Assembly (NCBI RefSeq): GCF_964355755.1
Contig: NC_092674.1
Span: 7,073,001-7,137,000, forward strand
Reading direction: 5' to 3'
From: Antedon mediterranea
Taxonomy: Eukaryota > Echinodermata > Crinoidea > Comatulida > Antedonidae
DNA: 64,000 bases
Part shown: in pieces, positions 1 through 37,013 of the stretch
Position numbering within the stretch: position 1 is the first letter of the stretch
Layout of the letters: every line of letters starts with the position of its first letter
The notes under the pieces: generated by a model
Seen by the model: only the letters and a program-made list of their open reading frames with translations
What the model was told of the DNA's origin: nothing
The model's database searches: none
Made by a program: the position numbers and the translations under genes

Positions 1-39
1 GGACGTATGTCCGCATGGGTTCGAACCCCATCCGTACTA
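1..39 (+). tRNA. partial tRNA-Leu(UAA), 3' part only
   Basis: Starts inside the variable arm (GGACGTATGTCC). It contains an intact T arm (ATGGG, TTCGAAC, CCCAT), the 3' acceptor strand CCGTACT and discriminator A. The 5' part lies before the window, so the array extends to the left. Confidence 0.9.
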
Positions 40-111
40 ATATTTTAACCCCATTGTTTTTCCTATTTTTTATTGTTTACGGAATGTGTTTGTCAGTCGA
101 CAATAAGCCGA

Positions 112-193
112 AGTACGGTGGCCGAGTGGTTAAGGCCTTGGACTTAAGTTCCAATGGACGTATGTCCGCATGGGTTCGAACCCATCCGTACTA
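112..193 (+). pseudogene. tRNA-Leu(UAA) monomer type a, probably defective
   Basis: 82 nt. The acceptor AGTACGG/CCGTACT and anticodon loop CTTAAGT are intact. Base 26 is C instead of G, and one C is missing from the T arm, which shrinks the T loop or breaks a stem pair. The B box is shortened to GGTTCGAACCCA. This type opens each higher-order unit and is conserved through the array. Confidence 0.7.
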
Positions 194-265
194 ATAATCT
201 AACACAATGGTTTTTCCTATTTTTAATTTTTTACAAATCGTATTTGTCAGTCAACTTCAAGGGAA

Positions 266-348
266 AGTATGGTGGCCGAGTGGTTAAGGCGTTGGACTTA
301 AGTTCCAATGGACGTATGTCCGCATGGGTTCGAACCCCATCCGTACTA
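266..348 (+). tRNA. tRNA-Leu(UAA), type b
   Basis: 83 nt, canonical except for C5 to T in the acceptor (AGTATGG), which gives a T-G wobble with position 68. A box TGGCCGAGTGG and B box GGTTCGAACCC are intact. Probably foldable and transcribable. Confidence 0.8.
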
Positions 349-420
349 ATATTTTAACCCCATTGTTTTTCCTATTTTTTATTGTTTACGGAATGTGTTT
401 GTCAGTCGACAATAAGCCGA

Positions 421-503
421 AGTACGGTGGCCGAGTGGTTAAGGCGTTGGACTTAAGTTCCAATGGACGTATGTCCGCATGGGTTCGAACCCCATCCGTA
501 CTA
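421..503 (+). tRNA. tRNA-Leu(UAA), type c, canonical
   Basis: Class II cloverleaf of 83 nt: acceptor AGTACGG/CCGTACT (7 perfect pairs), T8 G9, D stem GCC/GGC, G26, anticodon stem TTGGA/TCCAA, loop CTTAAGT with anticodon TAA, long variable arm TGGACGTATGTCCGC, T arm ATGGG-TTCGAAC-CCCAT, discriminator A73 as expected for eukaryotic tRNA-Leu. No intron and no encoded CCA. Internal A box TGGCCGAGTGG and B box GGTTCGAACCC. TTTT and TTTTT runs follow as Pol III terminators. Reads UUA codons. Confidence 0.95.
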
Positions 504-576
504 ATATTTTAATACAATTGTTTTTCCTATTTTTTATTTTTTTACAAATCGTATTTGTCAGTCAACTTCAAGGGAA

Positions 577-659
577 AGTACGGTGGCCGAGTGGTTAAGG
601 CGTTGGACTTAAGTTCCAATGGACGTATGTCCGCATGGGTTCGAACCCCATCCGTACTA
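577..659 (+). tRNA. tRNA-Leu(UAA), type d, canonical
   Basis: Body identical to type c but with a different upstream spacer (TTTTTTTACAAATCGTATT family). In other blocks (5392, 8034, 11609, 14251, 25131) this slot carries CCATACT, giving a C-A mismatch in the acceptor stem. Confidence 0.93.
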
Positions 660-731
660 ATATTTTAACACAATTGTTTTTCCTATTTTTAATTTTTTAC
701 AAATCGTATTTGTCAGTCAACTTCAAGCGAA

Positions 732-814
732 AGTACGGTGGCCGAGTTGTTAAGGCGTTGGACTTAAGTTCCAATGGACGTATGTCCGCATGGGTTCGAA
801 CCCCATCCGTACTA
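732..814 (+). tRNA. tRNA-Leu(UAA), type e, D-loop variant
   Basis: Canonical except for a G to T change in the D loop (GAGTTGTTAA), hitting the conserved GG pair that contacts the T loop and the end of the A box. Anticodon and stems are intact. Reduced function is likely but unproven. Confidence 0.65.
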
Positions 815-890
815 ATATTTTAACCCCATTGTTTTTTTTTATATTTTTTACTTGTTTACGAAATGTGTTCCCTAATCGAAAGCAAGCGCA

Positions 891-973
891 AGTACGGTGG
901 CTGACTGGTTAAGGCGTTGGACGTAAGTTCCAATGGACGTATGTCCGCATTGGTTCGAACCCCATCCGTACTA
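891..973 (+). pseudogene. tRNA-Leu(UAA) type f, probable pseudogene
   Basis: D arm changed to GCTGACTGG, degrading the A box. The anticodon loop is CGTAAGT, so the near-universal U33 is G. The T stem is ATTGG against CCCAT, with a mismatch. The acceptor stem is intact. Preceded by the longer spacer family with TTTTTTTTTATA and TTCCCTAATCG. Confidence 0.75.
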
Positions 974-1045
974 ATATTTTAAAACCATTGTTTTTCCTAT
1001 TTTTTATTGTTTACGGAATGTGCTTGTCAGTCGACAATAAGCCGA

Positions 1046-1128
1046 AGTACGGTGGCCGAGTGGTTAAGGCGTTGGACTTAAGTTCCAATGGACGTATGAC
1101 CGCATGGGATCGAACCCCATCCGTACTA
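1046..1128 (+). pseudogene. tRNA-Leu(UAA) type g, T-loop/variable-arm variant
   Basis: The variable arm is GGACGTATGACC, losing one pair, and the T loop starts with A instead of T54 (GGGATCGAACCCC). The acceptor, D and anticodon arms are canonical. The B box still fits a loose GWTCRANNC pattern, so transcription is possible even if function is not. Confidence 0.6.
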
Positions 1129-1200
1129 ATATTTTAACCCCATTGTTTTTCCTATTTTTTATTGTTTACGTAATGTGTTTGTCAGTCGACAATAAGCCGA

Positions 1201-1283
1201 AGTACGGTGGCCGAGTGGTTAAGGCGTTGGACTTAAGTTCCAATGGACGTATGTCCGCATGGGTTCGAACCCCATCCGTACTA
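1201..1283 (+). tRNA. tRNA-Leu(UAA), type h, canonical
   Basis: All arms, both internal promoter boxes and discriminator A are identical to type c. The upstream spacer carries TACGTAATG instead of TACGGAATG, which identifies the slot. Confidence 0.95.
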
Positions 1284-1355
1284 ATATTTTAACCCCATTG
1301 TTTTTCCTATTTTTTATTGTTTACGGAATGTGTTTGTCAGTCGACAATAAGACGA

Positions 1356-1438
1356 AGTACGGTGGCCGAGTGGTTTAGGCGTTGGACTTAAGTTCCAATG
1401 GACGTATGTCCGCATGGGTTTGAACCCCATCCGTACTA
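1356..1438 (+). tRNA. tRNA-Leu(UAA), type i variant
   Basis: Two changes: TTTAGGC in the D loop (A to T) and TTTGAAC in the T loop (C56 to T). C56 normally pairs with a D-loop G, so the tertiary fold is weakened. The upstream spacer ends GACGAAG instead of GCCGAAG. Confidence 0.6.
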
Positions 1439-1510
1439 ATATTTTAACCCCATTGTTTTTCCTATTTTTTATTGTTTACGGAATGTGTTTGTCAGTCGAC
1501 AATAAGCCGA

Positions 1511-1593
1511 AGTACGGTGGCCGAGTGGTTAAGGCGTTGGACTTAAGTTCCAATGGACGTATGTCCGCATGGGTTCGAACCCCATCCGTACTA
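1511..1593 (+). tRNA. tRNA-Leu(UAA), type j, canonical
   Basis: Body identical to the canonical sequence, with standard spacers on both sides. This is the last monomer of the ten-member higher-order unit before type a recurs at 1666. Confidence 0.95.
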
Positions 1594-1665
1594 ATATTTT
1601 AACCCCATTGTTTTTCCTATTTTTTATTGTTTACGGAATGTGTTTGTCAGTCGACAATAAGCCGA

Positions 1666-3373: not shown

Positions 3374-4927
3374 AGTACGGTGGCCGAGTGGTTAAGGCCT
3401 TGGACTTAAGTTCCAATGGACGTATGTCCGCATGGGTTCGAACCCATCCGTACTAATAATCTAACACAATGGTTTTTCCTATTTTTAATTTTTTACAAAT
3501 CGTATTTGTCAGTCAACTTCAAGGGAAAGTATGGTGGCCGAGTGGTTAAGGCGTTGGACTTAAGTTCCAATGGACGTATGTCCGCATGGGTTCGAACCCC
3601 ATCCGTACTAATATTTTAACCCCATTGTTTTTCCTATTTTTTATTGTTTACCGAATGTGTTTGTCAGTCGACAATAAGCCGAAGTACGGTGGCCGAGTGG
3701 TTAAGGCGTTGGACTTAAGTTCCAATGGACGTATGTCCGCATGGGTTCGAACCCCATCCGTACTAATATTTTAATACAATTGTTTTTCCTATTTTTTATT
3801 TTTTTACAAATCGTATTTGTCAGTCAACTTCAAGGGAAAGTACGGTGGCCGAGTGGTTAAGGCGTTGGACTTAAGTTCCAATGGACGTATGTCCGCATGG
3901 GTTCGAACCCCATCCGTACTAATATTTTAACACAATTGTTTTTCCTATTTTTAATTTTTTACAAATCGTATTTGTCAGTCAACTTCAAGCGAAAGTACGG
4001 TGGCCGAGTTGTTAAGGCGTTGGACTTAAGTTCCAATGGACGTATGTCCGCATGGGTTCGAACCCCATCCGTACTAATATTTTAACCCCATTGTTTTTTT
4101 TTATATTTTTTACTTGTTTACGAAATGTGTTCCCTAATCGAAAGCAAGCGCAAGTACGGTGGCTGACTGGTTAAGGCGTTGGACGTAAGTTCCAATGGAC
4201 GTATGTCCGCATTGGTTCGAACCCCATCCGTACTAATATTTTAAAACCATTGTTTTTCCTATTTTTTATTGTTTACGGAATGTGCTTGTCAGTCGACAAT
4301 AAGCCGAAGTACGGTGGCCGAGTGGTTAAGGCGTTGGACTTAAGTTCCAATGGACGTATGACCGCATGGGATCGAACCCCATCCGTACTAATATTTTAAC
4401 CCCATTGTTTTTCCTATTTTTTATTGTTTACGTAATGTGTTTGTCAGTCGACAATAAGCCGAAGTACGGTGGCCGAGTGGTTAAGGCGTTGGACTTAAGT
4501 TCCAATGGACGTATGTCCGCATGGGTTCGAACCCCATCCGTACTAATATTTTAACCCCATTGTTTTTCCTATTTTTTATTGTTTACGGAATGTGTTTGTC
4601 AGTCGACAATAAGACGAAGTACGGTGGCCGAGTGGTTTAGGCGTTGGACTTAAGTTCCAATGGACGTATGTCCGCATGGGTTTGAACCCCATCCGTACTA
4701 ATATTTTAACCCCATTGTTTTTCCTATTTTTTATTGTTTACGGAATGTGTTTGTCAGTCGACAATAAGCCGAAGTACGGTGGCCGAGTGGTTAAGGCGTT
4801 GGACTTAAGTTCCAATGGACGTATGTCCGCATGGGTTCGAACCCCATCCGTACTAATATTTTAACCCCATTGTTTTTCCTATTTTTTATTGTTTACGGAA
4901 TGTGTTTGTCAGTCGACAATAAGCCGA
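3374..4927 (+). repeat. higher-order block 3: 10 tRNA-Leu monomers
   Basis: tRNA starts: 3374a, 3528b, 3683c, 3839d, 3994e, 4153f, 4308g, 4463h, 4618i, 4773j. Length 1,554 bp. Nearly the same as the first block, 3,262 bp earlier. Confidence 0.9.
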
Positions 4928-6015
4928 AGTACGGTGGCCGAGTGGTTAAGGCCTTGGACTTAAGTTCCAATGGACGTATGTCCGCATGGGTTCGAACCCA
5001 TCCGTACTAATACTTTAACACAATGGTTTTTCCTATTTTTAATTTTTTACAAATCGTATTTGTCAGTCAACTTCAAGGGAAAGTATGGTGGCCGAGTGGT
5101 TAAGGCGTTGGACTTAAGTTCCAATGGACGTATGTCCGCATGGGTTCGAACCCCATCCGTACTAATATTTTAACCCCATTGTTTTTCCTATTTTTTATTG
5201 TTTACGGAATGTGTTTGTCAGTCGACAATAAGCCGAAGTACGGTGGCCGAGTGGTTAAGGCGTTGGACTTAAGTTCCAATGGACGTATGTCCGCATGGGT
5301 TCGAACCCCATCCGTACTAATATTTTAATACAATTGTTTTTCCTATTTTTTATTTTTTACAAATCGTATTTGTCAGTCAACTTCAAGGGAAAGTACGGTG
5401 GCCGAGTGGTTAAGGCGTTGGACTTAAGTTCCAATGGACGTATGTCCGCATGGGTTCGAACCCCATCCATACTAATATTTTAACACAATTGTTTTTCCTA
5501 TTTTTAATTTTTTTCAAATCGTATTTGTCAGTCAACTTCAAGCGAAAGTACGGTGGCCGAGTTGTTAAGGCGTTGGACTTAAGTTCCAATGGACGTATGT
5601 CCGCATGGGTTCGAACCCCATCCGTACTAATATTTTAACCCCATTGTTTTTTTTTATATTTTTTACTTGTTTACAAAATGTGTTCCCTAATCGAAAGCAA
5701 GCGCAAGTACGGTGGCTGACTGGTTAAGGCGTTGGACGTAAGTTCCAATGGACGTATGTCCGCATTGGTTCGAACCCCATCCGTACTAATATTTTAAAAC
5801 CATTGTTTTTCCTATTTTTTATTGTTTACGGAATGTGCTTGTCAGTCGACAATAAGCCGAAGTACGGTGGCCGAGTGGTTAAGGCGTTGGACTTAAGTTC
5901 CAATGGACGTATGACCGCATGGGATCGAACCCCATCCGTACTAATATTTTAACCCCATTGTTTTTCCTATTTTTTATTGTTTACGTAATGTGTTTGTCAG
6001 TCGACAATAAGACGA
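4928..6015 (+). repeat. higher-order block 4: 7 tRNA-Leu monomers (h-i-j missing)
   Basis: tRNA starts: 4928a, 5082b, 5237c, 5392d', 5547e, 5706f, 5861g. Length 1,088 bp. Types h, i and j are lost, and the next monomer (6016) is an i/a hybrid that marks the deletion joint. Confidence 0.9.
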
Positions 6016-7569
6016 AGTACGGTGGCCGAGTGGTTTAGGCCTTGGACTTAAGTTCCAATGGACGTATGTCCGCATGGGTTCGAACCCATCCGTACTAATA
6101 ATCTAACACAATGGTTTTTCCTATTTTTAATTTTTTACAAATCGTATTTGTCAGTCAACTTCAAGGGAAAGTATGGTGGCCGAGTGGTTAAGGCGTTGGA
6201 CTTAAGTTCCAATGGACGTATGTCCGCATGGGTTCGAACCCCATCCGTACTAATATTTTAACCCCATTGTTTTTCCTATTTTTTATTGTTTACCGAATGT
6301 GTTTGTCAGTCGACAATAAGCCGAAGTACGGTGGCCGAGTGGTTAAGGCGTTGGACTTAAGTTCCAATGGACGTATGTCCGCATGGGTTCGAACCCCATC
6401 CGTACTAATATTTTAATACAATTGTTTTTCCTATTTTTTATTTTTTTACAAATCGTATTTGTCAGTCAACTTCAAGGGAAAGTACGGTGGCCGAGTGGTT
6501 AAGGCGTTGGACTTAAGTTCCAATGGACGTATGTCCGCATGGGTTCGAACCCCATCCGTACTAATATTTTAACACAATTGTTTTTCCTATTTTTAATTTT
6601 TTACAAATCGTATTTGTCAGTCAACTTCAAGCGAAAGTACGGTGGCCGAGTTGTTAAGGCGTTGGACTTAAGTTCCAATGGACGTATGTCCGCATGGGTT
6701 CGAACCCCATCCGTACTAATATTTTAACCCCATTGTTTTTTTTTATATTTTTTACTTGTTTACGAAATGTGTTCCCTAATCGAAAGCAAGCGCAAGTACG
6801 GTGGCTGACTGGTTAAGGCGTTGGACGTAAGTTCCAATGGACGTATGTCCGCATTGGTTCGAACCCCATCCGTACTAATATTTTAAAACCATTGTTTTTC
6901 CTATTTTTTATTGTTTACGGAATGTGCTTGTCAGTCGACAATAAGCCGAAGTACGGTGGCCGAGTGGTTAAGGCGTTGGACTTAAGTTCCAATGGACGTA
7001 TGACCGCATGGGATCGAACCCCATCCGTACTAATATTTTAACCCCATTGTTTTTCCTATTTTTTATTGTTTACGTAATGTGTTTGTCAGTCGACAATAAG
7101 CCGAAGTACGGTGGCCGAGTGGTTAAGGCGTTGGACTTAAGTTCCAATGGACGTATGTCCGCATGGGTTCGAACCCCATCCGTACTAATATTTTAACCCC
7201 ATTGTTTTTCCTATTTTTTATTGTTTACGGAATGTGTTTGTCAGTCGACAATAAGACGAAGTACGGTGGCCGAGTGGTTTAGGCGTTGGACTTAAGTTCC
7301 AATGGACGTATGTCCGCATGGGTTTGAACCCCATCCGTACTAATATTTTAACCCCATTGTTTTTCCTATTTTTTATTGTTTACGGAATGTGTTTGTCAGT
7401 CGACAATAAGCCGAAGTACGGTGGCCGAGTGGTTAAGGCGTTGGACTTAAGTTCCAATGGACGTATGTCCGCATGGGTTCGAACCCCATCCGTACTAATA
7501 TTTTAACCCCATTGTTTTTCCTATTTTTTATTGTTTACGGAATGTGTTTGTCAGTCGACAATAAGCCGA
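6016..7569 (+). repeat. higher-order block 5: 10 tRNA-Leu monomers, first is an i/a hybrid
   Basis: tRNA starts: 6016 (i/a hybrid: GACGAAG spacer and TTTAGG from type i, then CCTTGG and the T-arm deletion from type a), 6170b, 6325c, 6481d, 6636e, 6795f, 6950g, 7105h, 7260i, 7415j. Confidence 0.9.
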
Positions 7570-9591
7570 AGTACGGTGGCCGAGTGGTTAAGGCCTTGGA
7601 CTTAAGTTCCAATGGACGTATGTCCGCATGGGTTCGAACCCATCCGTACTAATACTTTAACACAATGGTTTTTCCTATTTTTAATTTTTTACAAATCGTA
7701 TTTGTCAGTCAACTTCAAGGGAAAGTATGGTGGCCGAGTGGTTAAGGCGTTGGACTTAAGTTCCAATGGACGTATGTCCGCATGGGTTCGAACCCCATCC
7801 GTACTAATATTTTAACCCCATTGTTTTTCCTATTTTTTATTGTTTACGGAATGTGTTTGTCAGTCGACAATAAGCCGAAGTACGGTGGCCGAGTGGTTAA
7901 GGCGTTGGACTTAAGTTCCAATGGACGTATGTCCGCATGGGTTCGAACCCCATCCGTACTAATATTTTAATACAATTGTTTTTCCTATTTTTTATTTTTT
8001 ACAAATCGTATTTGTCAGTCAACTTCAAGGGAAAGTACGGTGGCCGAGTGGTTAAGGCGTTGGACTTAAGTTCCAATGGACGTATGTCCGCATGGGTTCG
8101 AACCCCATCCATACTAATATTTTAACACAATTGTTTTTCCTATTTTTAATTTTTTTCAAATCGTATTTGTCAGTCAACTTCAAGCGAAAGTACGGTGGCC
8201 GAGTTGTTAAGGCGTTGGACTTAAGTTCCAATGGACGTATGTCCGCATGGGTTCGAACCCCATCCGTACTAATATTTTAACCCCATTGTTTTTTTTTATA
8301 TTTTTTACTTGTTTACAAAATGTGTTCCCTAATCGAAAGCAAGCGCAAGTACGGTGGCTGACTGGTTAAGGCGTTGGACGTAAGTTCCAATGGACGTATG
8401 TCCGCATTGGTTCGAACCCCATCCGTACTAATATTTTAAAACCATTGTTTTTCCTATTTTTTATTGTTTACGGAATGTGCTTGTCAGTCGACAATAAGCC
8501 GAAGTACGGTGGCCGAGTGGTTAAGGCGTTGGACTTAAGTTCCAATGGACGTATGACCGCATGGGATCGAACCCCATCCGTACTAATATTTTAACCCCAT
8601 TGTTTTTCCTATTTTTTATTGTTTACGTAATGTGTTTGTCAGTCGACAATAAGCCGAAGTACGGTGGCCGAGTGGTTAAGGCGTTGGACTTAAGTTCCAA
8701 TGGACGTATGTCCGCATGGGTTCGAACCCCATCCGTACTAATATTTTAACCCCATTGTTTTTTTTTATATTTTTTACTTGTTTACGAAATGTGTTCCCTA
8801 ATCGAAAGCAAGCGCAAGTACGGTGGCTGACTGGTTAAGGCGTTGGACGTAAGTTCCAATGGACGTATGTCCGCATTGGTTCGAACCCCATCCGTACTAA
8901 TATTTTAAAACCATTGTTTTTCCTATTTTTTATTGTTTACGGAATGTGCTTGTCAGTCGACAATAAGCCGAAGTACGGTGGCCGAGTGGTTAAGGCGTTG
9001 GACTTAAGTTCCAATGGACGTATGACCGCATGGGATCGAACCCCATCCGTACTAATATTTTAACCCCATTGTTTTTCCTATTTTTTATTGTTTACGTAAT
9101 GTGTTTGTCAGTCGACAATAAGCCGAAGTACGGTGGCCGAGTGGTTAAGGCGTTGGACTTAAGTTCCAATGGACGTATGTCCGCATGGGTTCGAACCCCA
9201 TCCGTACTAATATTTTAACCCCATTGTTTTTCCTATTTTTTATTGTTTACGGAATGTGTTTGTCAGTCGACAATAAGACGAAGTACGGTGGCCGAGTGGT
9301 TTAGGCGTTGGACTTAAGTTCCAATGGACGTATGTCCGCATGGGTTTGAACCCCATCCGTACTAATATTTTAACCCCATTGTTTTTCCTATTTTTTATTG
9401 TTTACGGAATGTGTTTGTCAGTCGACAATAAGCCGAAGTACGGTGGCCGAGTGGTTAAGGCGTTGGACTTAAGTTCCAATGGACGTATGTCCGCATGGGT
9501 TCGAACCCCATCCGTACTAATATTTTAACCCCATTGTTTTTCCTATTTTTTATTGTTTACGGAATGTGTTTGTCAGTCGACAATAAGCCGA
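7570..9591 (+). repeat. higher-order block 6: 13 tRNA-Leu monomers (f-g-h duplicated)
   Basis: tRNA starts: 7570a, 7724b, 7879c, 8034d', 8189e, 8348f, 8503g, 8658h, 8817f, 8972g, 9127h, 9282i, 9437j. The f-g-h trio is repeated, giving 2,022 bp. Confidence 0.9.
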
Positions 9592-11144
9592 AGTACGGTG
9601 GCCGAGTGGTTAAGGCCTTGGACTTAAGTTCCAATGGACGTATGTCCGCATGGGTTCGAACCCATCCGTACTAATACTTTAACACAATGGTTTTTCCTAT
9701 TTTTAATTTTTTACAAATCGTATTTGTCAGTCAACTTCAAGGGAAAGTATGGTGGCCGAGTGGTTAAGGCGTTGGACTTAAGTTCCAATGGACGTATGTC
9801 CGCATGGGTTCGAACCCCATCCGTACTAATATTTTAACCCCATTGTTTTTCCTATTTTTTATTGTTTACGGAATGTGTTTGTCAGTCGATAATAAGCCGA
9901 AGTACGGTGGCCGAGTGGTTAAGGCGTTGGACTTAAGTTCCAATGGACGTATGTCCGCATGGGTTCGAACCCCATCCGTACTAATATTTTAATACAATTG
10001 TTTTTCCTATTTTTTATTTTTTACAAATCGTATTTGTCAGTCAACTTCAAGGGAAAGTACGGTGGCCGAGTGGTTAAGGCGTTGGACTTAAGTTCCAATG
10101 GACGTATGTCCGCATGGGTTCGAACCCCATCCGTACTAATATTTTAACACAATTGTTTTTCCTATTTTTAATTTTTTTCAAATCGTATTTGTCAGTCAAC
10201 TTCAAGCGAAAGTACGGTGGCCGAGTTGTTAAGGCGTTGGACTTAAGTTCCAATGGACGTATGTCCGCATGGGTTCGAACCCCATCCGTACTAATATTTT
10301 AACCCCATTGTTTTTTTTTATATTTTTTACTTGTTTACGAAATGTGTTCCCTAATCGAAAGCAAGCGCAAGTACGGTGGCTGACTGGTTAAGGCGTTGGA
10401 CGTAAGTTCCAATGGACGTATGTCCGCATTGGTTCGAACCCCATCCGTACTAATATTTTAAAACCATTGTTTTTCCTATTTTTTATTGTTTACGGAATGT
10501 GCTTGTCAGTCGACAATAAGCCGAAGTACGGTGGCCGAGTGGTTAAGGCGTTGGACTTAAGTTCCAATGGACGTATGACCGCATGGGATCGAACCCCATC
10601 CGTACTAATATTTTAACCCCATTGTTTTTCCTATTTTTTATTGTTTACGTAATGTGTTTGTCAGTCGACAATAAGCCGAAGTACGGTGGCCGAGTGGTTA
10701 AGGCGTTGGACTTAAGTTCCAATGGACGTATGTCCGCATGGGTTCGAACCCCATCCGTACTAATATTTTAACCCCATTGTTTTTCCTATTTTTTATTGTT
10801 TACGGAATGTGTTTGTCAGTCGACAATAAGACGAAGTACGGTGGCCGAGTGGTTTAGGCGTTGGACTTAAGTTCCAATGGACGTATGTCCGCATGGGTTT
10901 GAACCCCATCCGTACTAATATTTTAACCCCATTGTTTTTCCTATTTTTTATTGTTTACGGAATGTGTTTGTCAGTCGACAATAAGCCGAAGTACGGTGGC
11001 CGAGTGGTTAAGGCGTTGGACTTAAGTTCCAATGGACGTATGTCCGCATGGGTTCGAACCCCATCCGTACTAATATTTTAACCCCATTGTTTTTCCTATT
11101 TTTTATTGTTTACGGAATGTGTTTGTCAGTCGACAATAAGCCGA
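9592..11144 (+). repeat. higher-order block 7: 10 tRNA-Leu monomers
   Basis: tRNA starts: 9592a, 9746b, 9901c, 10056d, 10211e, 10370f, 10525g, 10680h, 10835i, 10990j. Length 1,553 bp, one T shorter than block 1 in a spacer. The spacer before 9901 has GATAATAAG instead of GACAATAAG. Confidence 0.9.
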
Positions 11145-22600: not shown

Positions 22601-23112
22601 TTTGATAATTGTTTATGAAATGTGTTTGTCTGTCAACTTCAAGGGGAAGTACGGTGGCCGAGTGGTTAAGGCGTTGGACTTAAGTTCCAATGGACGTATG
22701 TCCGCATGGGTTCGAATCCCATCCGCACTAATATTTTAACCCCATTGTTTTTCCTATTTTTTATTGTTTACGGATTGTGTTTGTCAGTCGACAATAAGAC
22801 GAAGTACGGTGGCCGAGTGGTTTAGGCGTTGGACTTAAGTTCCAATGGACGTATGTCCGCATGGGTTTGAACCCCATCCGTACTAATATTTTAACCCCAT
22901 TGTTTTTCCTATTTTTTATTGTTTACGGAATGTGTTTGTCAGTCGACAATAAGCCGAAGTACGGTGGCCGAGTGGTTAAGGCGTTGGACTTAAGTTCCAA
23001 TGGACGTATGTCCGCATGGGTTCGAACCCCATCCGTACTAATATTTTAACCCCATTGTTTTTCCTATTTTTTATTGTTTACGGAATGTGTTTGTCAGTCG
23101 ACAATAAGCCGA
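19689..23112 (+). repeat. divergent block 14: 22 tRNA-Leu monomers
   Basis: tRNA starts: 19689, 19843, 19998, 20153, 20308, 20463, 20618, 20773, 20928, 21083, 21242, 21405, 21560, 21715, 21870, 22025, 22182, 22337, 22494, 22648, 22803, 22958. The a-j order is lost. Several copies (for example 19843, 20463, 21560, 22182, 22494) have 3' halves eroded to GCATCGATTCCAACCC, destroying the T arm and B box. 20308 and 22025 have GCATGAATTCG. 21242 has an 8-bp duplication and a changed anticodon. 20153, 20928 and 21870 look canonical. Confidence 0.88.
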
Positions 23113-24666
23113 AGTACGGTGGCCGAGTGGTTAAGGCCTTGGACTTAAGTTCCAATGGACGTATGTCCGCATGGGTTCGAACCCATCCGTACTAATAATC
23201 TAACACAATGGTTTTTCCTATTTTTAATTTTTTACAAATCGTATTTGTCAGTCAACTTCAAGGGAAAGTATGGTGGCCGAGTGGTTAAGGCGTTGGACTT
23301 AAGTTCCAATGGACGTATGTCCGCATGGGTTCGAACCCCATTCGTACTAATATTTTAACCCCATTGTTTTTCCTATTTTTTATTGTTTACCGAATGTGTT
23401 TGTCAGTCGACAATAAGCCGAAGTACGGTGGCCGAGTGGTTAAGGCGTTGGACTTAAGTTCCAATGGACGTATGTCCGCATGGGTTCGAACCCCATCCGT
23501 ACTAATATTTTAATACAATTGTTTTTCCTATTTTTTATTTTTTTACAAATCGTATTTGTCAGTCAACTTCAAGGGAAAGTACGGTGGCCGAGTGGTTAAG
23601 GCGTTGGACTTAAGTTCCAATGGACGTATGTCCGCATGGGTTCGAACCCCATCCGTACTAATATTTTAACACAATTGTTTTTCCTATTTTTAATTTTTTA
23701 CAAATCGTATTTGTCAGTCAACTTCAAGCGAAAGTACGGTGGCCGAGTTGTTAAGGCGTTGGACTTAAGTTCCAATGGACGTATGTCCGCATGGGTTCGA
23801 ACCCCATCCGTACTAATATTTTAACCCCATTGTTTTTTTTTATATTTTTTACTTGTTTACGAAATGTGTTCCCTAATCGAAAGCAAGCGCAAGTACGGTG
23901 GCTGACTGGTTAAGGCGTTGGACGTAAGTTCCAATGGACGTATGTCCGCATTGGTTCGAACCCCATCCGTACTAATATTTTAAAACCATTGTTTTTCCTA
24001 TTTTTTATTGTTTACGGAATGTGCTTGTCAGTCGACAATAAGCCGAAGTACGGTGGCCGAGTGGTTAAGGCGTTGGACTTAAGTTCCAATGGACGTATGA
24101 CCGCATGGGATCGAACCCCATCCGTACTAATATTTTAACCCCATTGTTTTTCCTATTTTTTATTGTTTACGTAATGTGTTTGTCAGTCGACAATAAGCCG
24201 AAGTACGGTGGCCGAGTGGTTAAGGCGTTGGACTTAAGTTCCAATGGACGTATGTCCGCATGGGTTCGAACCCCATCCGTACTAATATTTTAACCCCATT
24301 GTTTTTCCTATTTTTTATTGTTTACGGAATGTGTTTGTCAGTCGACAATAAGACGAAGTACGGTGGCCGAGTGGTTTAGGCGTTGGACTTAAGTTCCAAT
24401 GGACGTATGTCCGCATGGGTTTGAACCCCATCCGTACTAATATTTTAACCCCATTGTTTTTCCTATTTTTTATTGTTTACGGAATGTGTTTGTCAGTCGA
24501 CAATAAGCCGAAGTACGGTGGCCGAGTGGTTAAGGCGTTGGACTTAAGTTCCAATGGACGTATGTCCGCATGGGTTCGAACCCCATCCGTACTAATATTT
24601 TAACCCCATTGTTTTTCCTATTTTTTATTGTTTACGGAATGTGTTTGTCAGTCGACAATAAGCCGA
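23113..24666 (+). repeat. higher-order block 15: 10 tRNA-Leu monomers
   Basis: tRNA starts: 23113a, 23267b, 23422c, 23578d, 23733e, 23892f, 24047g, 24202h, 24357i, 24512j. Block 9 shifted by 10,880 bp, except that the first monomer is a normal type a. 23267 has CCATTCGTACT. Confidence 0.9.
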
Positions 24667-26688
24667 AGTACGGTGGCCGAGTGGTTAAGGCCTTGGACTT
24701 AAGTTCCAATGGACGTATGTCCGCATGGGTTCGAACCCATCCGTACTAATACTTTAACACAATGGTTTTTCCTATTTTTAATTTTTTACAAATCGTATTT
24801 GTCAGTCAACTTCAAGGGAAAGTATGGTGGCCGAGTGGTTAAGGCGTTGGACTTAAGTTCCAATGGACGTATGTCCGCATGGGTTCGAACCCCATCCGTA
24901 CTAATATTTTAACCCCATTGTTTTTCCTATTTTTTATTGTTTACGGAATGTGTTTGTCAGTCGACAATAAGCCGAAGTACGGTGGCCGAGTGGTTAAGGC
25001 GTTGGACTTAAGTTCCAATGGACGTATGTCCGCATGGGTTCGAACCCCATCCGTACTAATATTTTAATACAATTGTTTTTCCTATTTTTTATTTTTTACA
25101 AATCGTATTTGTCAGTCAACTTCAAGGGAAAGTACGGTGGCCGAGTGGTTAAGGCGTTGGACTTAAGTTCCAATGGACGTATGTCCGCATGGGTTCGAAC
25201 CCCATCCATACTAATATTTTAACACAATTGTTTTTCCTATTTTTAATTTTTTTCAAATCGTATTTGTCAGTCAACTTCAAGCGAAAGTACGGTGGCCGAG
25301 TTGTTAAGGCGTTGGACTTAAGTTCCAATGGACGTATGTCCGCATGGGTTCGAACCCCATCCGTACTAATATTTTAACCCCATTGTTTTTTTTTATATTT
25401 TTTACTTGTTTACAAAATGTGTTCCCTAATCGAAAGCAAGCGCAAGTACGGTGGCTGACTGGTTAAGGCGTTGGACGTAAGTTCCAATGGACGTATGTCC
25501 GCATTGGTTCGAACCCCATCCGTACTAATATTTTAAAACCATTGTTTTTCCTATTTTTTATTGTTTACGGAATGTGCTTGTCAGTCGACAATAAGCCGAA
25601 GTACGGTGGCCGAGTGGTTAAGGCGTTGGACTTAAGTTCCAATGGACGTATGACCGCATGGGATCGAACCCCATCCGTACTAATATTTTAACCCCATTGT
25701 TTTTTCTATTTTTTATTGTTTACGTAATGTGTTTGTCAGTCGACAATAAGCCGAAGTACGGTGGCCGAGTGGTTAAGGCGTTGGACTTAAGTTCCAATGG
25801 ACGTATGTCCGCATGGGTTCGAACCCCATCCGTACTAATATTTTAACCCCATTGTTTTTTTTTATATTTTTTACTTGTTTACGAAATGTGTTCCCTAATC
25901 GAAAGCAAGCGCAAGTACGGTGGCTGACTGGTTAAGGCGTTGGACGTAAGTTCCAATGGACGTATGTCCGCATTGGTTCGAACCCCATCCGTACTAATAT
26001 TTTAAAACCATTGTTTTTCCTATTTTTTATTGTTTACGGAATGTGCTTGTCAGTCGACAATAAGCCGAAGTACGGTGGCCGAGTGGTTAAGGCGTTGGAC
26101 TTAAGTTCCAATGGACGTATGACCGCATGGGATCGAACCCCATCCGTACTAATATTTTAACCCCATTGTTTTTCCTATTTTTTATTGTTTACGTAATGTG
26201 TTTGTCAGTCGACAATAAGCCGAAGTACGGTGGCCGAGTGGTTAAGGCGTTGGACTTAAGTTCCAATGGACGTATGTCCGCATGGGTTCGAACCCCATCC
26301 GTACTAATATTTTAACCCCATTGTTTTTCCTATTTTTTATTGTTTACGGAATGTGTTTGTCAGTCGACAATAAGACGAAGTACGGTGGCCGAGTGGTTTA
26401 GGCGTTGGACTTAAGTTCCAATGGACGTATGTCCGCATGGGTTTGAACCCCATCCGTACTAATATTTTAACCCCATTGTTTTTCCTATTTTTTATTGTTT
26501 ACGGAATGTGTTTGTCAGTCGACAATAAGCCGAAGTACGGTGGCCGAGTGGTTAAGGCGTTGGACTTAAGTTCCAATGGACGTATGTCCGCATGGGTTCG
26601 AACCCCATCCGTACTAATATTTTAACCCCATTGTTTTTCCTATTTTTTATTGTTTACGGAATGTGTTTGTCAGTCGACAATAAGCCGA
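24667..26688 (+). repeat. higher-order block 16: 13 tRNA-Leu monomers
   Basis: tRNA starts: 24667a, 24821b, 24976c, 25131d', 25286e, 25445f, 25600g, 25755h, 25914f, 26069g, 26224h, 26379i, 26534j. Block 10 at +10,880 bp. Confidence 0.9.
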
Positions 26689-28241
26689 AGTACGGTGGCC
26701 GAGTGGTTAAGGCCTTGGACTTAAGTTCCAATGGACGTATGTCCGCATGGGTTCGAACCCATCCGTACTAATACTTTAACACAATGGTTTTTCCTATTTT
26801 TAATTTTTTACAAATCGTATTTGTCAGTCAACTTCAAGGGAAAGTATGGTGGCCGAGTGGTTAAGGCGTTGGACTTAAGTTCCAATGGACGTATGTCCGC
26901 ATGGGTTCGAACCCCATCCGTACTAATATTTTAACCCCATTGTTTTTCCTATTTTTTATTGTTTACGGAATGTGTTTGTCAGTCGATAATAAGCCGAAGT
27001 ACGGTGGCCGAGTGGTTAAGGCGTTGGACTTAAGTTCCAATGGACGTATGTCCGCATGGGTTCGAACCCCATCCGTACTAATATTTTAATACAATTGTTT
27101 TTCCTATTTTTTATTTTTTACAAATCGTATTTGTCAGTCAACTTCAAGGGAAAGTACGGTGGCCGAGTGGTTAAGGCGTTGGACTTAAGTTCCAATGGAC
27201 GTATGTCCGCATGGGTTCGAACCCCATCCGTACTAATATTTTAACACAATTGTTTTTCCTATTTTTAATTTTTTTCAAATCGTATTTGTCAGTCAACTTC
27301 AAGCGAAAGTACGGTGGCCGAGTTGTTAAGGCGTTGGACTTAAGTTCCAATGGACGTATGTCCGCATGGGTTCGAACCCCATCCGTACTAATATTTTAAC
27401 CCCATTGTTTTTTTTGATATTTTTTACTTGTTTACGAAATGTGTTCCCTAATCGAAAGCAAGCGCAAGTACGGTGGCTGACTGGTTAAGGCGTTGGACGT
27501 AAGTTCCAATGGACGTATGTCCGCATTGGTTCGAACCCCATCCGTACTAATATTTTAAAACCATTGTTTTTCCTATTTTTTATTGTTTACGGAATGTGCT
27601 TGTCAGTCGACAATAAGCCGAAGTACGGTGGCCGAGTGGTTAAGGCGTTGGACTTAAGTTCCAATGGACGTATGACCGCATGGGATCGAACCCCATCCGT
27701 ACTAATATTTTAACCCCATTGTTTTTCCTATTTTTTATTGTTTACGTAATGTGTTTGTCAGTCGACAATAAGCCGAAGTACGGTGGCCGAGTGGTTAAGG
27801 CGTTGGACTTAAGTTCCAATGGACGTATGTCCGCATGGGTTCGAACCCCATCCGTACTAATATTTTAACCCCATTGTTTTTCCTATTTTTTATTGTTTAC
27901 GGAATGTGTTTGTCAGTCGACAATAAGACGAAGTACGGTGGCCGAGTGGTTTAGGCGTTGGACTTAAGTTCCAATGGACGTATGTCCGCATGGGTTTGAA
28001 CCCCATCCGTACTAATATTTTAACCCCATTGTTTTTCCTATTTTTTATTGTTTACGGAATGTGTTTGTCAGTCGACAATAAGCCGAAGTACGGTGGCCGA
28101 GTGGTTAAGGCGTTGGACTTAAGTTCCAATGGACGTATGTCCGCATGGGTTCGAACCCCATCCGTACTAATATTTTAACCCCATTGTTTTTCCTATTTTT
28201 TATTGTTTACGGAATGTGTTTGTCAGTCGACAATAAGCCGA
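26689..28241 (+). repeat. higher-order block 17: 10 tRNA-Leu monomers
   Basis: tRNA starts: 26689a, 26843b, 26998c, 27153d, 27308e, 27467f, 27622g, 27777h, 27932i, 28087j. Block 11 at +10,880 bp, with a T to G change in the spacer near 27,416. Confidence 0.9.
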
Positions 28242-30568
28242 AGTACGGTGGCCGAGTGGTTAAGGCCTTGGACTTAAGTTCCAATGGACGTATGTCCGCA
28301 TGGGTTCGAACCCATCCGTACTAATACTTTAACACAATGGTTTTTCCTATTTTTAATTTTTTACAAATCGTATTTGTCAGTCAACTTCAAGGGAAAGTAT
28401 GGTGGCCGAGTGGTTAAGGCGTTGGACTTAAGTTCCAATGGACGTATGTCCGCATGGGTTCGAACCCCATCCGTACTAATATTTTAACCCCATTGTTTTT
28501 CCTATTTTTTATTGTTTACGGAATGTGTTTGTCAGTCGACAATAAGCCGAAGTACGGTGGCCGAGTGGTTAAGGCGTTGGACTTAAGTTCCAATGGACGT
28601 ATGTCCGCATGGGTTCGAACCCCATCCGTACTAATATTTTAACCCCATTGTTTTTCCTATTTTTTATTGTTTACGGAATGTGTTTGTCAGTCGACAATAA
28701 GACGAAGTACGGTGGCCGAGTGGTTTAGGCGTTGGACTTAAGTTCCAATGGACGTATGTCCGCATGGGTTTGAACCCCATCCGTACTAATATTTTAACCC
28801 CATTGTTTTTCCTATTTTTTATTGTTTACGGAATGTGTTTGTCAGTCGACAATAAGCCGAAGTACGGTGGCCGAGTGGTTAAGGCGTTGGACTTAAGTTC
28901 CAATGGACGTATGTCCGCATGGGTTCGAACCCCATCCGTACTAATATTTTAACCCCATTGTTTTTCCTATTTTTTATTGTTTACGGAATGTGTTTGTCAG
29001 TCGACAATAAGCCGAAGTACGGTGGCCGAGTGGTTAAGGCCTTGGACTTAAGTTCCAATGGACGTATGTCCGCATGGGTTCGAACCCATCCGTACTAATA
29101 CTTTAACACAATGGTTTTTCCTATTTTTAATTTTTTACAAATCGTATTTGTCAGTCAACTTCAAGGGAAAGTATGGTGGCCGAGTGGTTAAGGCGTTGGA
29201 CTTAAGTTCCAATGGACGTATGTCCGCATGGGTTCGAACCCCATCCGTACTAATATTTTAACCCCATTGTTTTTCCTATTTTTTATTGTTTACGGAATGT
29301 GTTTGTCAGTCGACAATAAGCCGAAGTACGGTGGCCGAGTGGTTAAGGCGTTGGACTTAAGTTCCAATGGACGTATGTCCGCATGGGTTCGAACCCCATC
29401 CGTACTAATATTTTAATACAATTGTTTTTCCTATTTTCTATTTTTTACAAATCGTATTTGTCAGTCAACTTCAAGGGAAAGTACGGTGGCCGAGTGGTTA
29501 AGGCGTTGGACTTAAGTTCCAATGGACGTATGTCCGCATGGGTTCGAACCCCATCCGTACTAATATTTTAACACAATTGTTTTTCCTATTTTTAATTTTT
29601 TTCAAATCGTATTTGTCAGTCAACTTCAAGCGAAAGTACGGTGGCCGAGTTGTTAAGGTGTTGGACTTAAGTTCCAATGGACGTATGTCCGCATGGGTTC
29701 GAACCCCATCCGTACTAATATTTTAACCCCATTGTTTTTTTTTATATTTTTTACTTGTTTACGAAATGTGTTCCCTAATCGAAAGCAAGCGCAAGTACGG
29801 TGGCTGACTGGTTAAGGCGTTGGACGTAAGTTCCAATGGACGTATGTCCGCATTGGTTCGAACCCCATCCGTACTAATATTTTAAAACCATTGTTTTTCC
29901 TATTTTTTATTGTTTACGGAATGTGCTTGTCAGTCGACAATAAGCCGAAGTACGGTGGCCGAGTGGTTAAGGCGTTGGACTTAAGTTCCAATGGACGTAT
30001 GACCGCATGGGATCGAACCCCATCCGTACTAATATTTTAACCCCATTGTTTTTCCTATTTTTTATTGTTTACGTAATGTGTTTGTCAGTCGACAATAAGC
30101 CGAAGTACGGTGGCCGAGTGGTTAAGGCGTTGGACTTAAGTTCCAATGGACGTATGTCCGCATGGGTTCGAACCCCATCCGTACTAATATTTTAACCCCA
30201 TTGTTTTTCCTATTTTTTATTGTTTACGGAATGTGTTTGTCAGTCGACAATAAGACGAAGTACGGTGGCCGAGTGGTTTAGGCGTTGGACTTAAGTTCCA
30301 ATGGACGTATGTCCGCATGGGTTTGAACCCCATCCGTACTAATATTTTAACCCCATTGTTTTTCCTATTTTTTATTGTTTACGGAATGTGTTTGTCAGTC
30401 GACAATAAGCCGAAGTACGGTGGCCGAGTGGTTAAGGCGTTGGACTTAAGTTCCAATGGACGTATGTCCGCATGGGTTCGAACCCCATCCGTACTAATAT
30501 TTTAACCCCATTGTTTTTCCTATTTTTTATTGTTTACGGAATGTGTTTGTCAGTCGACAATAAGCCGA
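28242..30568 (+). repeat. higher-order blocks 18-19: 15 tRNA-Leu monomers
   Basis: tRNA starts: 28242a, 28396b, 28551c, 28706i, 28861j, then 29016a, 29170b, 29325c, 29480d, 29635e, 29794f, 29949g, 30104h, 30259i, 30414j. Blocks 12 and 13 at +10,880 bp. Confidence 0.9.
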
Positions 30569-33500
30569 AGTACGGTGGCCGAGTGGTTAAGGCCTTGGAC
30601 TTAAGTTCCAATGGACGTATGTCCGCATGGGTTCGAACCCATCCGTACTAATACTTTAACACAATGGTTTTTCCTATTTTTAATTTTTTACAAATCGTAT
30701 TTGTCAGTCAACTTCAAGGGAAAGTATGGTGGCCGAGTGGTTAAGGCGTTGGACTTAAGTTCCAATGGACGTATGTCCGCATCGATTCCAACCCAATCCC
30801 TACTAATATTTTAAAACCATTGTTTTTCCTATTTTTTATTGTTTACGGAATGTGTTTGTCAGTCGACAATAAGCCGAAGTACGGTGGCCGAGTGGTTAAG
30901 GCGTTGGACTTAAGTTCCAATGGACGTATGTCCGCATGGGTTTGAACCCCATCCGTACTAACATTTTAACACAATTGTTTTTCCTATTTTTAATTTTTTA
31001 CAAATCGTATTTGTCAGTCACCTTCAAGGGAAAGTACGGTGGCCGAGTGGTTAAGGCGTTGGACTTAAGTTCCAATGGACGTATGTCCGCATGGGTTCGA
31101 ACCCCATCCGTACTAATATTTTAACCCCATTGTTTTTCCTATTTTTTATTGTTTACGGAATGTGTTTGTCAGTCGAGAATAAGCCGAAGTACGGTGGCCG
31201 AGTGGTTAAGGCGTTGGACTTAAGTTCCAATGGACGTATGTCCGCATGAATTCGAACCCCATCCGTACTAATATTTTAACCCCATTGTTTTTCCTATTTT
31301 TAATTTTTTACAAATCGTATTTGTCAGTCAACTTCAAGCAAAAGTACGGTGGCCGAGTGGTTAAGGCGTTGGACTTAAGTTCCAATGGACGTATGTCCGC
31401 ATCGATTCCAACCCAATCCCTACTAATATTTTAAATCAATATTATCCATTTTTGATAATTGTTTATGAAATGTGTTTGTCAACAACTAACAAGCACAAGT
31501 ACGGTGGCCGAGTGGTTAAGGCGTTGGACTTAAGTTCCAATGGACGTATGTCCGCATTGGTTCGAACCCCATCCGTACTAATATTTTAAAACCATTGTTT
31601 TTCCTATTTTTTATTGTTTACGGAATGTGTTTGTCAGTCGACAATAAGCCGAAGTACGGTGGCCGAGTGGTTAAGGCGTTGGACTTAAGTTCCAATGGAC
31701 GTATGTCCGCATGGGTTCGAACCCCATCCATACTAATATTTTAATACAATTGTTTTTCCTATTTTTTATTTTTTACAAATCGTATTTGTCAGTCAACTTC
31801 AAGGGAAAGTACGGTGGCCGAGTGGTTAAGGCGTTGGACTTAAGTTCCAATGGACGTATGTCCGCATGGGTTCGAACCCCATCCGTACTAATATTTTAAC
31901 ACAATTGTTTTTCCTATTTTTAATTTTTTACAAATCGTATTTGTCAGTCAACTTCAAGCGAAAGTACGGTGGCCGAGTGGTTAAGGCGTTGGACTTAAGT
32001 TCCAATGGACATATGTCCGCATGGGTTCGAACCCCATCCGTACTAATATTTTAACCCCATTGTTTTTTTTTATATTTTTTACTTGTTTACGAAATGTGTT
32101 CCCTAATCGAAAGCAAGCGCAAGTACGGTGGCTGACTGGTTAAGGCGTTGGACTTTAGTTCCAATGGCCCAATGGACGTATGTCCGCATTGGTTCGAACC
32201 CCATCCGTACTAATACTTTAAAACCATTGTTTTTCCTATTTTTTATTGTTTACGGAATGTGCTTGTCAGTCGACAATAAGCCGAAGTACGGTGGCCGAGT
32301 GGTTAAGGAGTTGGACTTAAGTTCCAATGGACGTATGTCCGCATGGGATCGAACCCCATCCGTACTAATATTTTAACCCCATTGTTTTTCCTATTTTTTA
32401 TTGTTTACGGAATGTGTTTGTCAGCCGACAATAAGCCGAAGTACGGTGGCCGAGTGGTTTAGGCGTTGGACTTAAGTTCCAATGGACGTATGTCCGCATC
32501 GATTCCAACCCAATCCCTACTAATATTTTAAAACCATTGTTTTTCCTATTTTTTATTGTTTACGGAATGTGTTTGTCAGTCGACAATAAGCCGAAGTACG
32601 GTGGCCGAGTGGTTAAGGCGTTGGACTTAAGTTCCAATGGACGTATGTCCGCATGGGTTTGAACCCCATCCGTACTAACATTTTAACACAATTGTTTTTC
32701 CTATTTTTAATTTTTTACAAATCGTATTTGTCAGTCACCTTCAAGGGAAAGTACGGTGGCCGAGTGGTTAAGGCGTTGGACTTAAGTTCCAATGGACGTA
32801 TGTCCGCATGGGTTCGAACCCCATCCGTACTAATATTTTAACCCCATTGTTTTTCCTATTTTTTATTGTTTACGGAATGTGTTTGTCAGTCGAGAATAAG
32901 CCGAAGTACGGTGGCCGAGTGGTTAAGGCGTTGGACTTAAGTTCCAATGGACGTATGTCCGCATGAATTCGAACCCCATCCGTACTAATATTTTAACCCC
33001 ATTGTTTTTTTTAGATTTTTAATTTTTTACAAATCGTATTTGTCAGTCAACTTCAAGCAAAAGTACGGTGGCCGAGTGGTTAAGGCGTTGGACTTAAGTT
33101 CCAATGGACGTATGTCCGCATCGATTCCAACCCCATCCGTACTAATATTTTAAAACCATTGTTTTTCCTATTTTTTATTGTTTACGGAATGTGTTTGTCA
33201 GTCGACAATAAGCCGAAGTACGGTGGCCGAGTGGTTAAGGCGTTGGACTTAAGTTCCAATGGACGTATGTCCGCATGGGTTCGAACCCCATCCGTACTAA
33301 TATTTTAACCCCATTGTTTTTTTTATAGTTTTACTTGTTTACGGAATGTGTTCCCTAATCGAAAACAAGCGCAAGTACGGTGGCCGAGTGGTTAAGGCGT
33401 TGGACTTAAATTCCAATGGACGTATGTCCGCATCGATTCCAACCCAATCCCTACTAATAATTTAAATCAATATTATCCATTTTGATAATTGTTTATGAAA

Positions 33501-34868
33501 TGTGTTTGTCTGTCAACTTCAAGGGGAAGTACGGTGGCCGAGTGGTTAAGGCGTTGGACTTAAGTTCCAATGGACGTATGTCCGCATGGGTTCGAACCCC
33601 ATCCGTACTAATATTTTAATACAATTGTTTTTCCTATTTTAAATTTTTTACACATCGTATTTGTCAGTCAACTTCAAGGGAAAGTACGGTTGCCGAGTGG
33701 TTAAGGCGTTGGACTTAAGTTCCAATGGACGTATGTCCGCATGGGTTCGAACCCCATCCGTACTAATATTTTAAAACCATTGTTTTTCCTATTTTTTATT
33801 GTTTACGGAATGAGTTTGTCAGTCGACAATAAGCCGAAGTACGGTGGCCGAGTGGTTAAGGCGTTGGACTTAAGTTCCAATGGACGTATGTCCGCATGGG
33901 TTCGAACCCCATCCGTACTAACATTTTAAAACCATTGTGTTTCCTATTTTTTTATTGTTTACGGAATGTGTTTGTCAGTCGACAATAAGCCGAAGTACGG
34001 TGGCCGAGTGGTTAAGGCGTTGGGCTTAAGTTCCAATGGACGTATGTCCGCATGGGTTCGAACCCCATCCGTACTAAAATTTTAACACAATTGTTTTTCC
34101 TATTTTTAATTTTTTACAAATCGTATTTGTCAGTCAACTTCAAGCGAAAGTACGGTGGCCGAGTGGTTAAGGCGTTGGCCTTAAGTTCCAATGGACGTAT
34201 GTCCGCATGGGTTCGAACCCCATCCGTACTAATATTTTAACCCCATTGTTTTTTATATAGTTTTACTTGTTTACGGAATGTGTTCCCTAATCGAAAACAA
34301 GCGCAAGTACGGTGGCCGAGTGGTTAAGGCGTTGGACTTAAGTTCCAATGGACGTATGTCCGCATCGATTACAATCCAATCCTTACTAATATTTTAAATC
34401 AATATTATCTATTTTTGATAATTGTTTACGAAATGTGTTCCCTAATCGAAAGCAAGCGCAAGTACGGTGGCTGACTGGTTAAGGCGTTGGACTTAAGTTC
34501 CAATGGACGTATGTCCGCATTGGTTCGAACCCCGTCCGTACTAATATTTTAAAACCATTGTTTTTCCTATTTTTTATTGTTTACGAAATGTGTTTGTCAG
34601 TCGGCAATAAGCCGAAGTACGGTGGCAGAGGGGTTAAGGCGTTAGACTTAAGTTCCAATGGACGTATGTCCGCATGGGTTCGAACCCCATCCGTACTAAT
34701 ATTTTAACCCCATTGTTTTTCCTATTTTTAATTTTTTACAAATCGTATTTGTCAGTCAACTTCAAGCAAATGTACGGTGGCCGAGTGGTTAAGGCGTTGG
34801 ACTTAAGTTCCAATGGACGTATGTCCGCATGGGTTCGAACCCCATCCGTACTAATACTTTTTTTTTGT
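30569..34868 (+). repeat. divergent block 20 and array edge: 28 tRNA-Leu monomers
   Basis: tRNA starts: 30569, 30723, 30878, 31033, 31188, 31343, 31498, 31653, 31808, 31963, 32122, 32285, 32440, 32595, 32750, 32905, 33062, 33217, 33374, 33528 (these mirror block 14 at +10,880 bp), then 33683, 33838, 33994, 34149, 34306, 34461, 34616, 34771. The last eight carry private changes, e.g. GTACGGTTGCC at 33683, TTGGGC at 33994, TTGGCC at 34149, a decayed 3' half at 34306, GGCAGAGGGG and TTAGAC at 34616, and T1 at 34771. Confidence 0.9.
34771..34853 (+). tRNA. last tRNA-Leu(UAA) of the array
   Basis: Body canonical except for T at position 1 (TGTACGG against CCGTACT, a terminal mismatch). It is followed by ACTTTTTTTTTG, a much stronger Pol III terminator than the TTTT/TTTTT of inner copies, and then by unrelated unique sequence. 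Confidence 0.8.
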
Positions 34869-36272: not shown

Positions 36273-36631
36273 TTTAGGCCTAGAAGGTTTAGTATATATC
36301 TTCGGTTAATCATGAAAATAATAGTCGATTAACAGCTTCTTGTGATTCCGAGTAGTACAATCCCCTTCTACCCCTCACCCCACTCCTCCTTGGACAATTA
36401 ATTGCATGTAAATGCTTTTATTAAAGTAGATTCATATTAATGATACATTGTACCCAACAATATAGGGGTGAATAAGGGTTGGTCTGGCCCTTGCTTTTAT
36501 ACATTATTTTCCTTCGTTCGTTTCACGAAAAAAGTGTCCATTGAGTAGGATTGTACAAAGGGAGGGGTTATACTGATGTGTGTTGGGCGGTTTTGGAAAT
36601 GTTCTTGTTTTTATTCGTAATTAGAGCCTTA

Positions 36632-36867: not shown

Positions 36868-37013
36868 TTAAGTTAGACTAATCGTATAAATATCCACCTA
36901 ATTAAACTACGGTATTTTGTATCAAAACATACATGTATACATACAGCAGGAATGTATACATAGAACATTTATTATTTGTATCTATAAAAATGACAAATTC
37001 TATACAAAAAAAT

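Follow-up and report, generated by a model that had tools for sequence, protein, structure and literature searches.

The first 34,861 positions of a 64,000-nucleotide stretch of the genome of the crinoid Antedon mediterranea (contig NC_092674.1, positions 7,073,001 to 7,137,000 of the forward strand; hereafter the window, numbered from its first letter) form one tandem array of 224 head-to-tail units of ~155 bp, all on the + strand. Each unit consists of an 83-nt tRNA-Leu(UAA)-like gene and a spacer of ~72 nt. The array most probably derives from a small cluster of working tRNA-Leu(UAA) genes, once under selection, which has recently expanded in a passive manner as satellite DNA and is now probably silent for the most part.

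The first-pass annotation of this DNA had described a 224-copy satellite of tRNA-Leu(UAA) genes in one orientation with a period of about 155 bp, and both statements are borne out. ARAGORN predicts 224 tRNA genes within positions 112–34853, all on the + strand, and Tandem Repeats Finder (TRF) returns a 155-bp unit repeated 224.3 times over positions 1–34861 with 90% matches. Furthermore, all 224 copies pass the gathering score of the Rfam tRNA family RF00005, 112 in each of the two halves searched; since the copy at 17362 is split by the boundary between these halves, the whole matches number 223, with scores from 36.1 to 62.6 bits (34 under 50 bits and 189 at 50 bits or above). The gene-anchored spacings (n = 223) amount to 155 bp in 167 cases, the remainder being 154 bp (22), 159 bp (21), 156 bp (6), 157 bp (5) and 163 bp (2). 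With head-to-tail tRNA genes and homologous spacers, on one strand and in many near-identical units, the region is a tandem tRNA array of the Entamoeba and Hydractinia type. ARAGORN reads 222 of the 224 copies as Leu(TAA); the other two, at 21242 and 32122, are read as 'Stop' tRNAs with a TTA anticodon, and both carry an 8-nt insertion. At the left edge, base 1 falls within a gene, and the array consequently extends leftward past the window; the copy number given here is that within the window as assembled, and the exact count depends on the assembly. At the right end the last gene stops at 34853 and is followed by nine T residues at 34858–34866.

The consensus gene body of 83 nt aligns end to end with the Rfam tRNA model at 62.6 bits and, with its TAA anticodon and long variable arm, has the make-up of a class II tRNA-Leu(UAA) gene. 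The 3′ discriminator position is A, as expected of a leucine tRNA from the identity rules. Free folding of six copies brings the consensus structure weak support: one consensus copy forms most stems as expected (−29.1 kcal/mol, z −2.0; last unit, z −1.2), and the predicted energy is weak evidence because the damaged copy at 891 reaches z −2.0 as well, with a different fold.

Thirty distinct gene bodies occur among the 224 units. The consensus itself accounts for 73 of them, and the next-commonest types carry changes such as T33G, G17T, C66T or the loss of C70. The integrity of each copy was scored by stem pairing and invariant bases, on criteria of our own; the scoring is strict, a single mispair or one altered invariant sufficing to class a copy as damaged. 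The last unit was included, and its A1T change, which unpairs the first acceptor pair, places it among the damaged copies. On this scale, 73 copies are canonical, 22 are intact variants, 107 are damaged and 22 carry insertions or deletions, which gives 95 intact against 129 defective copies, the defect often being a single one. The first-pass annotation, which had placed a class II tRNA in every unit, needs qualifying here, as 95 of the 224 genes pass this check. The intact copies are spread evenly over the thirds of the array (34, 30 and 31), and one badly damaged body, that of the copy at 891, is common to 19 of the 224 units.

Signals for RNA polymerase III (Pol III), which had likewise been attributed to every unit, are complete only at the 3′ side. 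A run of at least four T residues lies within 27 nt 3′ of the gene in all 224 units, and the T4 and T5 runs of the example spacer in Table 1 are, judging from their sequence, likely Pol III terminators. The A box matches the exact consensus in 184 of the 224 copies, the B box in 165 and both boxes in 125, so that at least one exact box is missing in 99.

The order of the units reveals a satellite with higher-order repeats. Single-linkage grouping at four or fewer alignment differences sorts the units into 13 types, and the dominant order, ABCCDBBBBB, constitutes a 10-unit block of 1553–1554 bp that is present in 11 copies in the window and covers 110 of the 224 units; elsewhere, successive A units delimit segments of 5, 7, 11, 13, 22 and 28 units. 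The nine types E to M have one to four members each and lie in the right-hand portion of the array and the repeated copy of that portion. Mismatch between blocks averages 0.4% (15 pairs, taken from the commonest block length, which 6 of the 11 blocks share), versus 9.2% among the monomers inside the first block; the multi-monomer blocks are thus more alike than the monomers of which they are made. Satellites that evolve by unequal exchange and block amplification are expected to show such a pattern. Larger duplications are superimposed: the two copies of a 67-unit block differ at 6 alignment columns in all, units 17–72 recur as units 57–112 with seven differences, and the near-exact duplications span 8–10 kb. 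The pattern of intact and defective genes is identical in 10 of the 11 dominant blocks, the same 5 of 10 genes being defective, which indicates that the defects came first and were amplified along with the block. Defects that precede the blocks and are copied with them argue against selection for each extra gene.

An earlier phase is suggested by the comparison of gene bodies with spacers. The 224 units comprise 54 distinct sequences (haplotypes), which were divided into spacer classes I, II and III according to motifs within the final 40 spacer nucleotides; four of the 54 were set aside as 'other', and the last unit, whose spacer is flank DNA, was excluded from the divergence counts. The majority bases of the classes differ at none of the 83 body columns in any of the three comparisons, and at 16, 16 and 22 spacer columns. 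In a comparison free of classes, the body divergence of distinct units is 3–4%, alike for spacers that differ by 2% and by 30%. Within classes, polymorphic columns amount to 20/83 in the body and 16/72 in the spacer for class I, 13/83 and 30/72 for class II, and 11/83 and 19/76 for class III. Recent changes, counted over 35 links between near-identical haplotypes, fall 26 times in the body and 32 times in the spacer, which is not different from the 83:72 proportion of their lengths (p = 0.19). These recent changes are close to neutral, body and spacer being struck alike. Taken from sequence patterns, we read this as a history in which the genes would have been kept working while the spacers drifted, followed by block amplification with little selection on single copies.

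The events leading to the present array may accordingly have begun with a short tandem run of functional tRNA-Leu(UAA) genes in a crinoid genome, in which selection would have held the gene bodies while the spacer classes drifted apart. The unit of gene plus spacer would then have turned into a satellite monomer, and unequal crossing-over or block amplification, with little selection per copy, would have expanded the array. This partly upholds a suggestion of the first-pass annotation, a satellite that had captured a tRNA: among the three explanations it offered, this one fits the anatomy best, with the direction reversed, as the gene-plus-spacer unit appears to have become the monomer. The ~95 intact copies could serve as Pol III templates through their internal A and B boxes. 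By analogy, however, the greater part of the array is probably silenced or a minor contributor to the tRNA pool: clustered tRNA genes of Arabidopsis are reported to be silent despite intact promoters and terminators (PMC10701932). The array seems to be a natural example of a gene turned satellite DNA, in which a 'before' (gene kept, spacers drifting) and an 'after' (block amplification, little single-copy constraint) are readable side by side. It also allows two questions to be put to the test: how tRNA supply copes when gene copies are very numerous, and whether a satellite can have densely packed Pol III promoters as its monomers.

Several observations weigh against this history, or soften it. 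The class rule builds in part of the spacer difference, because the classes are defined by motifs in the last 40 nt: 12 of 16, 11 of 16 and 15 of 22 differing spacer columns fall in the last 36. Outside these columns, 4, 5 and 7 of 36 spacer columns still differ, versus 0/83 in the body. When only fixed differences are counted, the contrast is weaker, with 0 in the body to 4, 9 and 8 in the spacer (p 0.14, 0.008 and 0.09); both these p values and those of the majority-base contrast (Fisher p 7e-5, 6e-5 and 3e-5) are too small, because the sites are linked and recombining and were treated as independent. The body takes slightly fewer of the recent changes than expected (45% versus 54%), so that weak selection is conceivable, and gene conversion confined to the body could be an alternative cause of the uniform bodies. 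As to the damage, only 34 of the 223 whole copies fall under 50 bits by Rfam score alone, the list of defects is our own, and the 95 intact genes could all work. Silencing in Arabidopsis, finally, is reported to be less than total, with weak expression of a boundary gene and an RNA-sequencing signal from 11 of the 13 unique tRNA-Cys transcripts (PMC10701932).

Selection on the array as a dose reservoir, that is, a large array kept for a high need of tRNA-Leu(UAA), for instance at a stage of heavy UUA decoding, had been put forward by the first-pass annotation and is now weakened to an unlikely explanation. It draws on the even spread of the 95 intact copies, on the 189 whole matches of at least 50 bits and on the majority gene body that is the same across spacer classes. 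The flank is, moreover, mostly AT-rich (28–42% GC per kb), and TTA makes up 41 of 170 leucine codons in three transposon open reading frames, which says nothing firm about host genes. Even there TTA is not the top leucine codon (CTT 42 vs TTA 41), and the 129 defective copies were amplified together with the good ones, while recent mutations do not significantly avoid the gene body. For the arrays of Entamoeba, the number of tRNA genes is reported to show no relation to codon use (PMC2652664). A reservoir composed of intact genes only is rejected by the damage census.

There is a small chance that the target of selection is how many intact genes each 1.55-kb block holds, with single copies exempt; the array would then be a satellite and a working, tunable tRNA locus at once, possibly with a chromosomal role of its own. 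A chromatin element, also among the suggestions of the first-pass annotation, seems improbable as the primary explanation. Here the array would supply dense sites for Pol III and its factor TFIIIC, acting as a boundary, in nuclear positioning, as a replication fork barrier or perhaps at a pericentromere. It is in keeping with this that copies with both exact boxes (125) outnumber the intact genes (95), and that a human tRNA tandem repeat has been proposed as a boundary element (PMC4041453). Such a surplus of box-keeping copies is, however, expected whenever damage falls elsewhere in the gene, 99 copies lack at least one exact box, and the human case depends on a CTCF site that its 7.3-kb unit contains.

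More improbable still is an assembly artefact, in which the true array would be much shorter and the near-exact blocks would be false duplications, for example of two haplotypes. The 7172-bp exact repeat and the 10.4-kb blocks with 6 differences could come from haplotype duplication. Nevertheless, the 54 distinct units and 30 distinct bodies require dozens of real copies even across two haplotypes and even if the near-exact blocks were false; the A-to-A segments are irregular (5, 7, 10, 11, 13, 22 and 28 units), which is no simple doubling, and the right edge is clean, with diverged units. A tandem tRNA-derived short interspersed nuclear element (SINE), or a satellite of foreign origin that picked up a tRNA fragment, shares the satellite-like unit length and homogenisation and is very improbable, since each unit holds a complete tRNA gene followed by a terminator: the tRNA-unrelated body or A-rich tail of a SINE is not seen in the unit types of the array, and a Basic Local Alignment Search Tool (BLAST) comparison of the array's terminal 1.86 kb with the 29 kb of flank in the window gives no match, so that this candidate was rejected on unit content and, for that one query, on the lack of a flank match.

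Table 1. Coordinates of the array and of representative features within it (window positions)
Feature	Positions	Strand	Remarks
Tandem array	1..34861	+	224 units; ARAGORN, TRF, Rfam RF00005; open at left edge
First copy of the 10-unit higher-order repeat ABCCDBBBBB	112..1665	+	~1.55 kb
Example consensus gene body	421..503	+	class II, anticodon TAA, stems all paired; 62.6 bits with RF00005
Example spacer	504..576	+	T4 at +4, T5 further on; then 5′ flank of next gene
Badly damaged example copy	891..973	+	A box, U33 and T stem changed; 38.1 bits with RF00005
7172-bp exact repeat	3962..11133	+	second copy 10179-17350, offset 6217; copies overlap
67-unit block, units 78-144	12233..22647	+	recurs at 23113-33527
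Copy with 8-nt insertion	21242..21332	+	ARAGORN anticodon TTA; twin copy 32122-32212
Second 67-unit copy, units 148-214	23113..33527	+	offset 10880, lag 70 units
Right edge, six units	33994..34853	+	bodies each seen once; includes one-off unit types J, K, L and M
Last unit	34771..34866	+	single change from consensus, A1T; then nine T, 34858-34866

The flank of the array contains two tRNA-Trp(CCA) genes on the − strand, at 37014–37085 and 38089–38160 (64.9 and 66.6 bits with RF00005). They lie ~1 kb apart and are 81% identical over 143 bp including their flanks; as this pair adjoins the array, the neighbourhood has other tRNA genes too. Between them is a near-perfect palindrome (37259–37373; two 55-nt arms, 93% complementary, 5 nt apart), perhaps a miniature inverted-repeat transposable element (MITE). 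A short element seen by eye at 36630–36870, with imperfect inverted ends (motif TCTACACT) and inner ATGGTAGTGAT repeats, is possibly a MITE as well. TRF also finds a degenerate 18-bp minisatellite at 47896–48143 (consensus CTATACTGTAGCCCTCCT) and, at 50473–50645, a tandem repeat whose unit, 31 or 59 bp long, consists of palindromes, for example GCGCAATTTAAAATTGCGC. Further on, the remains of a retrotransposon without long terminal repeats (non-LTR) occupy 55356–58405 (−), with endonuclease and reverse transcriptase in separate frames; the endonuclease frame (56690–58402, −) matches an Antedon mediterranea protein at 98% identity and 92% coverage. A second non-LTR element (58864–61254, −) has a long open reverse transcriptase frame, whose 795-aa product (58864–61251, −), of the long interspersed nuclear element (LINE) kind, matches another Antedon mediterranea protein at 97% identity along 63% of its length; one further match of this element (52% identity) bears the name of the element jockey. 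In the nine flank open reading frames searched against Pfam, only reverse transcriptase and endonuclease domains exceed the curated cut-offs, and no host gene was identified.

Tandem tRNA arrays are already published for Hydractinia, Entamoeba, human and maize, and the rarity claimed by the first-pass annotation has to be narrowed accordingly. In the arrays of Hydractinia, tens to hundreds of near-identical non-coding RNA genes, tRNA genes among them, are evenly spaced (PMC11067881, Genome Res. 2024). They resemble the Antedon array in being animal arrays of near-identical tRNA genes with even spacing and near-identical spacers, and differ in that the available text describes neither a higher-order repeat nor a damaged fraction; the same source also found tRNA arrays in Nematostella and calls tandem tRNA arrays unusual outside Entamoeba. 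The maize tRNASAT_ZM, a 91.95-kb tRNA satellite array on chr4L (PMC10335936, Nat. Genet. 2023), is likewise a single-block satellite based on tRNA; it lies in a plant genome and exceeds the visible part of the Antedon array in length.

In Entamoeba, nearly all tRNA genes lie in tandem arrays, some with single-tRNA units, and their homogenisation is ascribed to concerted evolution (PMC2652664, MBE 2007). In contrast to Antedon, short tandem repeats separate the genes, Leu(TAA) is dispersed or in multi-gene units, and the authors saw no clear pseudogenes, versus 129 defective copies of 224 here. The human variable-number tandem repeat at 1q23.3 also repeats tRNA genes, including tRNA-Leu (PMC4041453, NAR 2014); its unit, however, is GC-rich, 7.3 kb long, holds five tRNA genes and binds CTCF, with 9–43 units per allele. 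Plant clusters of one or few isoacceptors are similar in composition, and those of Arabidopsis are reported as silenced (PMC10701932, PMC11700998, PMC12652284). They reach up to 110 tRNA genes (PMC12652284), but differ in architecture: the Arabidopsis Cys unit is ~0.4 kb in 4–6 copies, variable in number and with a pseudogene at the edge, the Tyr-Tyr-Ser cluster has 27 units over almost 40 kb, and no higher-order repeat is described in the text available (PMC10701932, PMC11700998, PMC12652284). As regards gene number, a survey of 74 eukaryotes credits Nematostella and teleosts with clusters of at least fifty genes (PMC2888827), and zebrafish has 280 intact copies of tRNA-Leu-CTG and 398 of tRNA-Leu-CTT or -CTA (PMC3706591).

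In the available text of the open-licence papers compared, neither a single-gene unit this short nor a higher-order repeat that combines intact and defective genes in a set pattern was found, and none of the matches listed concerns a crinoid tRNA array by its title or the start of its abstract. An exact 29-base tRNA-Leu pattern has no match in a viral contig collection, which, being made of viral sequences, says little. In overall anatomy, the Antedon array is comparable to the alpha satellite of primate centromeres, in which a monomer of ~170 bp is organised into multi-monomer higher-order repeats with diverged monomers at the edges. Short monomer, higher-order repeat and diverged edge are common to both; unlike the Antedon monomer, that of alpha satellite carries no gene.

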